Origin: Haloglycomyces albus DSM 45210
GTDB taxonomy: Bacteria; Actinomycetota; Actinomycetes; Mycobacteriales; Micromonosporaceae
Length of the DNA stretch: 64,000 bases
Reading direction: 5' to 3'
Assembly (NCBI RefSeq): GCF_000527155.1
Contig: NZ_AZUQ01000001.1
Span: forward strand, 3,237,889-3,301,888
The stretch's first letter is position 1. Each line of letters begins with the position of its first letter. The notes beneath the pieces were generated by a model. It saw only the letters and a program-made list of their open reading frames with translations, was not told the origin of the DNA and ran no database searches. Shown here one piece after another: positions 34,012-35,661 of this stretch. Made by a program: the position numbers and the translations under genes.

Positions 34012-34677
34012 CTAAGGATCTACAATGGTCATCGTCAGGGAGTAAACCCGCTTGTACAAATCGTTCACCAGCGCCCGTCTCGGCTCTCCGATATCACCAA
34101 AATGTATCACCGTTTCCGGCAGCGTCAGGCGAGGATCGTCCACAATCCCATCGACGACTCCCCCGGTCACTACCAGATCAAGCGCCTCGGCTCCCAGAAT
34201 GCGCACCGCTGCCTCGGTCGCCTTCTTCCGAGCCGCCTTCTCCTGCTCGGCACGACGACGTGCAAACCGTTGCTGGGACTGGCCACCGGCTTTGGTTCGG
34301 CCCTGTACATACGACGTGTCGGTCTTGGAAGCAATGAACCGACCGTCCTGATCGACCACCGCGACACTATAGGCCCCTTTGCGAGCCAGTAGAAAACCAA
34401 TCCGACGCGGTAGGCGCGTTTCAACGGCCACCCGATCAGCAACGTCACGAGCGCCGTACCCGTCCGACGCCCATCTCTCCATAGCGGACGGATCGAGATT
34501 CCATTGCATGGTGACCCGCGTACCGTTCTCGGCCAGCAACTCGCCACCGGCATCGGTCAACGACGTACGCACGATACCGCCGTTACGCCGTTCAAAACGC
34601 TCGATCCAACCCTCCAGACGAGCCGGTTCGACTTCAACGGCACGTCCTCCCCCGGCCACGGGGCGCGCTTTGCCCAT
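34012..34677 (-). CDS. acVLRF1-type peptidyl-tRNA hydrolase (Vms1-like)
   Basis: A 221-residue protein resembling the actinobacterial Vms1-like release factor 1 family, which frees nascent chains from stalled 50S-tRNA complexes. It has the eRF1-like core GGRAVEVEPARLEGWIERFERRNGG near residue 9, SVAVVDQDGRFIASKTDTSYVQGRTKAGGQSQQRFARRRAEQ with a GGQ-like loop, and a final LPETVIHFGDIGEPRRALVNDLYKRVYSLTM strand. I chose the ATG at 34677, with GAGGAGGTG ahead; the open frame continues upstream to 35055 but crosses degenerate repeats and is not protein-like. It lies beside the repeat tract, 269 bases from the protease gene. Function is from family resemblance. Confidence 0.8.
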   Translation of the reverse strand: MGKARPVAGGGRAVEVEPARLEGWIERFERRNGGIVRTSLTDAGGELLAENGTRVTMQWNLDPSAMERWASDGYGARDVADRVAVETRLPRRIGFLLARKGAYSVAVVDQDGRFIASKTDTSYVQGRTKAGGQSQQRFARRRAEQEKAARKKATEAAVRILGAEALDLVVTGGVVDGIVDDPRLTLPETVIHFGDIGEPRRALVNDLYKRVYSLTMTIVDP

Positions 34678-34839
34678 CGTCGAGCACACCTCCTCAAAGC
34701 CGCAGTCGATACGCAAAAAATTAAGCGCCTGAGCAAACTCCCAGGCACTTGTTGAGATCGTACGCAGCGCCCTACCTGATCGCCGGAACCAGGCATTACA
34801 CGCGAAAACCAATAAGCACATTAATAGGAGCGACGGTAA

Positions 34840-35135
34840 TGTGAGCTGTAGCCCCAAGAAACCTCGACCACTACACCAACTCGTGACATAACCGGCGAAC
34901 TTCAAACGAAACGCAGAAGCGGTAGAGCTGCCTGTGTCCCTAAAGAGCGCCGACATCACACTTTCCCCGAGGACGAGCCAACCGGCGAGCCGCAAGTGCG
35001 AAGCACGACGCGGCGATAGAGCCGCCTGTGTTTTCCAAAAGAGCTCTACCACCACACCCTCCCCACGGATAAACCAACTGGCGAGCCGCTAGCACTGAAA
35101 GTGCGACGCGGCGGTAGAGCTGGAAAGGAGCTCAG
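34840..35135. repeat. Degenerate ~90-96-bp tandem repeat with conserved stem-loops
   Basis: Units start with AACCGGCGA or AACTGGCGA at 34890, 34980 and 35076, with a partial unit before. Each keeps a GCGGTAGAGC/GCGATAGAGC segment, and the first two add GCCTGTGT. Between these, units 2 and 3 form a two-helix hairpin: GCCGC..GTGC-GAA-GCAC..GCGGC (34989-35014) and GCCGC..GCACT-GAA-AGTGC..GCGGC (35085-35112). The outer stem is identical and the inner stem changed on both sides. Unit 1 keeps CTTC/GAAG (34900-34919). Purpose unknown. Confidence 0.65.
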
Positions 35136-35141
35136 GTTGTT

Positions 35142-35227
35142 CCAGGTGCTTCAGATTTGCGCGCGGAGGACTCGCAGCGGCCTCATGGCCGCAAGAGGCC
35201 CCCACAGCGCAAATATGGAGTGCCTGG
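35142..35227 (+). ncRNA. Candidate structured RNA, 86-base stem-loop
   Basis: The 21-base arms 35142-35162 and 35207-35227 pair along their length as plus-strand RNA with 17 Watson-Crick pairs, three G-U pairs and one mismatch. An inner hairpin GCGGCC-TCAT-GGCCGC sits at 35177-35192. As minus-strand RNA the G-U pairs would become A-C mismatches, so the plus strand is favoured. No promoter identified; it is not a known RNA family to me. Confidence 0.45.
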
Positions 35228-35230
35228 GGC

Positions 35231-35283
35231 AAGCTGAGCGGTCACCCTACCAACCAAAAGCTGAGCGGTCACCTCACCAATCA
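35231..35283. repeat. Two tandem copies of a 27-bp repeat
   Basis: AAGCTGAGCGGTCACC begins at 35231 and again at 35258, followed by similar ends; the second copy runs into the sufT stop codon. Near-identical over about 22 of 26 positions. Confidence 0.75.
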
Positions 35284-35661
35284 GACGTTGAAGCCGAGAG
35301 CTCTTAGCTGGTCCCGACCGTCGTCGGTGATCTTGTCCGGGCCCCACGGCGGGATCCATACCCAGTTGATGCGTACATCGTCGACCAGACCGCCGCCCGC
35401 GCCGGTCGTCAGGGCCGAGCGGGTTTGGTCTTCGATGACGTCGGTCAGCGGGCAGGCCGCCGACGTCAGGGTCATGTCCAGAGTGGCGATCCGCTCATCG
35501 TCCACGTGCACCCCGTACACCAGGCCCAGGTCGACGACGTTGATACCCAGTTCAGGGTCGACGACGTCCTTCATGGCCTCCAGGAGAGCCTCGGTCTCCT
35601 GGTCGGTGGCGGTGCTTTCGCCGGTTTCGGTGGCCGCGGCGTCGGCTTGCGTTTCAGTCAT
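35281..35661 (-). CDS. sufT: Fe-S cluster assembly factor SufT (MIP18/DUF59 family)
   Basis: A 126-residue MIP18-family protein that assists maturation of Fe-S proteins. After an acidic, Thr-rich N-terminal ~25 residues come LLEAMKDVVDPELGINVVDLGLVYGVHVDD and MTLTSAACPLTDVIEDQTRSAL with the conserved Cys, then VDDVRINWVWIPPWGPDKITDDGRDQLRALGF. Its ATG overlaps the sufU stop by one base (TAATG), so it is the last gene of the suf operon. The 3' end runs into the 27-bp tandem repeats. Family and context agree. Confidence 0.92.
   Translation of the reverse strand: MTETQADAAATETGESTATDQETEALLEAMKDVVDPELGINVVDLGLVYGVHVDDERIATLDMTLTSAACPLTDVIEDQTRSALTTGAGGGLVDDVRINWVWIPPWGPDKITDDGRDQLRALGFNV

Follow-up and report, generated by a model that had tools for sequence, protein, structure and literature searches.

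The array of diverged tandem units, the long hairpin in which it ends and the short tail that follows, found in the window (the stretch of 64,000 nucleotides of Haloglycomyces albus DSM 45210 that was analysed), are probably one copy of a mobile hairpin repeat that is non-autonomous and belongs to a new family, comparable in kind with the BOX and REP elements. The family appears to be undescribed so far, and no description of the element was recognised among the titles listed from the open-access literature searched. Its dispersal, its in-frame copies within genes and its patchy distribution together suggest a mobile element that relies on a trans-acting enzyme, and no host function is needed to account for it.

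The original prediction described diverged tandem units with stem-loops beside an acVLRF1 gene. Three such units are present (Table 1), the neighbour is confirmed by PF18859, and the quoted stems are all found in the sequence. The unit farthest from the hairpin is the most decayed of the three and has a short inner stem (CTTC/GAAG); the middle unit has the stems GCCGC/GCGGC with an inner GTGC/GCAC, and the unit adjoining the hairpin, which is nearest to the consensus and was itself among the 24 training sequences of the unit model, has GCCGC/GCGGC with an inner GCACT/AGTGC. The array is confirmed by the direct repeats D1, D3, D4 and D7 and was not reported by TRF at score 30. The acVLRF1 reading frame can be read through the array to 35055, with the coding signal beginning near 34677. 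On the other side of the array, the hairpin carries tandem U-G steps and a purine-rich internal step, and the second copy of the tail extends to the stop codon of the facing Fe-S assembly gene. The original prediction treated the array as the complete feature; the hairpin at its end and the tail escaped it, as did the dispersal, the position at stop codons and the relatives among other actinobacteria.

Table 1. Features of the element and its neighbouring genes, in window coordinates; A2 and R3 are described in the text
Feature	Position	Strand	Basis
acVLRF1 gene, far side of array	34012..34677	-	PF18859, E 4.4e-30 (Pfam)
Unit 3 counted from hairpin	34859..34930	+	unit model, own genome, 49.6 bits
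Unit 2 counted from hairpin	34944..35024	+	unit model, own genome, 64.2 bits
Unit 1, adjoining hairpin	35040..35122	+	unit model, own genome, 91.8 bits
Terminal long imperfect hairpin, subfamily I, ~110 nt	35130..35239	+	alignment A2; R3 match
Tail, GGTCACC then ACC/CCAA-rich stretch	35240..35257	+	direct repeat D2; CGGTCA
Second, displaced tail copy	35258..35284	+	direct repeat D2
Facing gene, Fe-S assembly protein, 126 aa	35281..35661	-	PF01883 (Pfam)

In a blastn search, the own genome (3.54 Mb, one contig) yielded 69 pieces. The covariance model R1, trained on 38 hairpin copies, gave 95 rows at E<=1, which correspond to 54 places after the removal of minus-strand echoes; 52 of these are clear (E<=1.6e-7, by manual count of the R1 rows), and the weak matches L069 and L070 were kept outside the counts based on the 52 loci. 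The unit model (R2), for which 24 units were used and 48 of 72 omitted, gave 95 matches at E<=0.01, which puts the array far outside what chance would produce, so that homologous units, whose absence elsewhere had been named as grounds for giving up the original prediction, do occur in this genome. The reading as a novel structured repeat is thus supported by the many homologous copies, together with the covariation of the hairpin and the absence of an Rfam match, both given below; a regulatory function, as in the RNA array that was also proposed originally, is putative.

Every element of this genome consists of repeated units, one per ~85-107 bp, followed by a hairpin of ~110 nt and a short ACC/CCAA-rich tail. 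As judged by eye, the 52 hairpins belong to three subfamilies (I, n=32; II, n=9; III, n=11), which have the outer feet and the tail in common and differ in the middle; hairpin subfamilies, linker types and inner-stem types are combined in many ways. At the locus L014, where the element lies at 2162 on the minus strand, the downstream tail has grown into a CCAA microsatellite with three further 22-bp tail repeats. A stretch of ~650 bp that extends past the array is 83% alike in L034 (2176-2817) and L067 (2049-2694), and near L034 lies a broken open reading frame which we take to be transposase-like; the stretch was rejected as a possible autonomous element, no likely gene having been seen among its open reading frames.

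The structure of the hairpin was examined in an alignment (A2) of 38 hairpins of subfamilies I and II, from which L030_4370 (cut off, and the same copy as L068) was left out. CGGTCA is invariant across the 38, and standard pairs occupy 98.9% of the cells. Compensatory changes on both sides are seen at 16 of 42 pairs, a number reached by none of 500 shuffles, and the covariation signal is lost when the partners are slid; the number of further pair types is ordinary (76 of 500 shuffles), and the cells are not independent events, since changes are common to the members of one subfamily. One of the 38, L010 (1964-2098), has a hairpin centre that runs the opposite way from that of the remaining 37. 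G-U outnumbers A-C by 187 to 2 in the paired columns of A2 (counted without L010:1952, the copy with the inverted centre) and by 59 to 7 in the nine subfamily III copies aligned without L039 and L042, in which the apex is truncated; these counts are favoured by the choice of columns by a folding program that accepts G-U. The energies of the two strands are independent of the choice of columns, and the plus strand gives the more stable fold in all 37 A2 hairpins compared and in 8 of 9 of subfamily III. The plus strand is indicated as the folded form of the hairpin; it would fold as RNA or as single-stranded DNA, the wobble and energy data fitting either. Tandem U-G/U-G is present in 34 of the 38 own hairpins, with GA opposite TA in the adjoining loop in most copies, and in 32 of 41 hairpins of relatives, where the loop that follows holds a G-A type step (GA with GG, GA or AA) in 33 of 41.

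The units behave differently. Among 72 units, the two swapped inner-stem pairs are C-G/G-C in 39 and 40 and T-A/T-A in 27; the strand preference is slight (G-U in 52 cells versus A-C in 40), with the better fold on the minus strand in 57 of the 72. The compensatory change originally claimed between the units is thus borne out by a swap seen across the 72 units, though the three window copies alone offer two adjacent pairs and one probable event. For a conserved structure, it is the terminal hairpin (35130-35239), just beyond the tract that had been described, that provides the strong evidence.

In this genome, the gene on the tail side, as called heuristically, faces the element in 30 of the 38 loci with a tail-side gene call, and its stop codon lies -3 to +9 nt from the tail end in 21 of these 30. 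The gap is mostly filled by extra tails in three further facing loci (the window copy, L033 and L014). The C-termini of 10 of the 21 stop-abutting proteins, picked as recognisable, were checked with NCBIfam. The best-scoring family ends 1-5 residues before the C-terminus in eight of the ten; the distance is 11 residues in Maf and 20 in UDP-glucose dehydrogenase, in both of which another NCBIfam family extends to the last residue. For TrkA, the match covers half of a longer model and gives no information on the C-terminus. In the other nine proteins, the match to the best-scoring profile stops 0-6 positions short of the profile end; these nine genes have therefore not been cut short. A few codons may have been replaced, since the tail can itself provide a stop codon in some frames.

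Relatives were searched for in the family, the order and the phylum with strict filters and 7-10 candidates scored per genome, so that absences and copy numbers are lower bounds. Neither the 300 genomes of the family (299 besides the own genome) nor the 397 of the order gave another genome matched by R1; among 396 phylum genomes, nine others were matched, in the families f40 and f54. Both appear to be Coriobacteriia, judging from an f54 copy that is 91% identical to Collinsella aerofaciens NZ_OY725717.1, in which the hairpin stands directly after cysS. The f54 copies have the outer arms TTCCAGGTGC-GCAGATT / GTGCCTGG, resembling subfamily I. In the 41 hairpins of relatives, including the Collinsella record, both-side changes occur at 22 of 27 pairs, and G-U exceeds A-C by 121 to 19 (an extended duplicate of one L107 copy was kept out of A4). 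A model built from these 41 alone (R3) matches the window copy at 35134-35235 on the plus strand (52.9 bits, E 3.4e-11) and finds all 41 of the own hairpins in subfamilies I and II; the 11 of subfamily III go unmatched at E<=1. R3 matches 22 of the 396 phylum genomes, the own genome included, of which 20 are in f40 and f54 and one, a weak match, is elsewhere (E 5e-4). A pattern scan of a collection of genome contigs, outside which the own genome possibly lies, gave one match, in a Solibacter MAG.

For the position in the relatives, where heuristic gene calls are noisy, a stop-codon test was used on 56 distinct copies, with reverse-strand echoes, same-copy repeats and weaker or partial matches left out. 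A stop codon in the facing frame lies between 40 nt before the 3' end and 12 nt inside it in 29 of the 56 copies, 17 of these falling 1-6 nt before the end, and 27 copies have no such stop codon; at the 5' end, the same test gave 11 of 56, with one within 10 nt. Most long hairpins in f40 have GTCAGCG ahead of them and, behind them, a CAGCGTCG spacer that leads to a second short hairpin (L079, L128, L129, L132). A stop triplet stands a few nucleotides past the second hairpin in 8 of 16 such copies inspected by eye, and in four of these (L079, L132, L133, L136) the facing genes are called 41-43 nt from the long hairpin. Among the f40 copies, some sit in frame within genes. Two genera carry them in recQ (L128, 264-2309; L131, 252-2300; Pfam RecQ_Zn_bind, RQC, HRDC), in the same linker between the zinc-binding and the RQC domains and in opposite orientation, and a third copy is in frame within priA (L130, 735-3101; Pfam PriA_3primeBD, Zn_ribbon_PriA).

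If the element is mobile, the single-stranded plus strand, as RNA or DNA, would fold into the hairpin, a trans-acting enzyme would recognise it, and insertion would put the 3' end of the element against the stop codon of an oppositely oriented gene, where it may do the least harm or to which it may be directed. Mobility alone leaves the precise contact with stop codons in distant lineages unexplained, and no candidate mobilising enzyme was found among Y1, RT and TnpB. The mobile reading also has against it the units, which do not have the strand preference of the hairpin, and subfamily III, which is not matched by R3 at E<=1. It is considered unlikely that the folded plus strand, probably as RNA, directs its own insertion exactly at facing stop codons by a transposition chemistry new to science, in an element common to the Coriobacteriia and this actinobacterium that has formed polar arrays here.

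There is also a small chance that the hairpin is a 3' boundary useful to the host, standing at the end of the gene and folding in the antisense strand so that transcripts which run antisense or converge on the gene are stopped or processed ahead of it. The same orientation and stop-codon position in distant lineages would suit such a boundary, as would the plus-strand sense of the hairpin and the location of 14 of 39 own loci between convergent genes. However, by eye the sequences inspected have no U-tract after the hairpin, be it on the plus or the minus strand, for which an intrinsic terminator was rejected; only some genes carry the element, no match was obtained in the other 299 family genomes sampled under the strict filters, and the relatives have copies within coding genes.

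The arrays are polar. The unit adjoining the hairpin outscores the next unit in 33 of 38 loci (Wilcoxon p = 3e-6) and the third unit in 13 of 14, and it is still ahead in 32 of 39 when the model is trained without hairpin-adjoining units. Extra tails within 80 nt of the element, searched with one pattern over equal lengths, occur downstream in 9 of 51 loci and upstream in none of 51; L030_4370 was left out of both this count and the polarity test, and L060, with a variant tail, out of the count. Three distant tail matches were found in the upstream 450-700 nt, at -439, -542 and -696. An older hairpin, in places even one of a different subfamily, has left part of its 3' arm, or half of it, on some of the extra tails (L034, L020, L061). 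The polarity, the downstream extra tails, the half-hairpin remnants and the inverted centre of L010 suggest that a locus is renewed at its hairpin end, and the original idea of a recombination relic proves partly right, in that decay increases with the distance of a unit from the hairpin. For a mobile element, later events at the palindrome (hairpin cleavage and ectopic repair, or re-insertion) may swap the hairpin and the adjacent unit and would leave old units upstream and old tails and half-hairpins downstream.

The same half-hairpin remnants downstream in L034, L020 and L061, the inverted centre of L010 and the shuffling of modules would be expected if recombination at the DNA level were the whole process, with long palindromes cleaved in their cruciform form, other copies serving as the template for repair, and no role for RNA. 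This is very unlikely, as the strong excess of G-U over A-C, the tandem U-G at the same place in both lineages and the spread to unrelated loci and into recQ all argue against it.

Several identities were sought and rejected. PF01797 (Y1, IS200-like transposase) gave no match in the own genome at E<=0.01, with the control positive in 6 of 14 genomes, and a REP/RAYT system was rejected for want of a Y1 transposase. PF00078 (RVT_1) likewise gave none at E<=0.01, with the control positive in 3 of 14 genomes, and a retroelement with a resident reverse transcriptase was set aside. The genome has five TnpB genes (L072-L076) with open frames, in two sequence groups, and no detected Y1 transposase; the best match of these loci to the element or the hairpin has E 0.72 or worse, and TnpB with its right-end RNA was rejected. 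Rfam gave no match in the window at the gathering threshold, a best weak match of E 0.92 in 34700-35300, and two matches at E<=0.1 in 20 loci of relatives, neither at the hairpin, so that a known RNA family was rejected. A phage or plasmid origin was rejected as well, the window element having no match in phage or plasmid collections; two patterns run on viral contigs found no match.

A retrotransposon-like cycle, in which a nick in the gene end at the stop codon would prime copying of the plus-strand RNA from the 3' tail onwards and leave the 3' end intact and the 5' end truncated, is scarcely probable: the orientation suits target-primed copying, the tails vary (with a (CCAA)n tail at one locus), displaced remnants retain the 3' end without the 5' end and the wobble pattern is RNA-like, but RVT_1 was not found in the own genome (E<=0.01), to our knowledge no nick specific to stop codons has been described, and the free combination of array units speaks against a single master copy.

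With regard to known systems, Rickettsia palindromic elements are hairpin elements of ~100 bp that lie in frame within genes; by description, they are alike in size and in-frame insertion and belong to a different lineage. TnpB/IscB right-end RNAs are structured RNAs at the 3' end of an element, with the target alongside; in contrast, the own-genome TnpB loci carry nothing similar. Integron attC sites have R-box sequences and cassette genes. The nearest in kind are the BOX elements, followed by the REPs. As described in the passages of PMC3049150 drawn on here, BOX of Streptococcus pneumoniae is interspersed and modular, with a variable number of middle modules and a predicted RNA fold, and is commoner between convergent genes and lineage-restricted, in all of which the present element resembles it by description; the order boxA-(boxB)n-boxC is similar in kind to (unit)n-hairpin, compared by layout and not by sequence. 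In contrast, BOX belongs to another phylum and has terminal inverted repeats and target duplications, and exact abutment to a stop codon is not described for it in those passages. No inverted repeat of the BOX or MITE type joins the two ends of the array in the repeat listing of the window, and no empty site or target duplication was shown in the own genome, the 20 relatives compared being all outside the genus. REPs, according to the parts of PMC3733652 used here, are palindromes of 20-40 bp tagged GTAG or CGTC, the GTAG ones with a tyrosine transposase; the likeness to them lies in being palindromic, multicopy, often 3' of genes and in tandem clusters, with some copies within replication and repair genes. 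The hairpin here is longer, at ~100-110 nt, and the own genome is without a detected Y1 transposase; by eye, the unit end holds GGTAGAGC, and no GTAG directly flanks the hairpin stem.

The findings define a multicopy element family, conserved in structure and apparently undescribed, that occurs in gut actinobacteria and in one distant relative of theirs. They make concrete and testable the question of how a small hairpin repeat without an enzyme of its own reaches stop codons exactly and in one orientation; handles on it are provided by the strand that folds, the boundary at the 3' end and the copies that lie in frame within recQ and priA. If the hairpin marks transcript ends, the annotation of gene ends in these bacteria would be affected.
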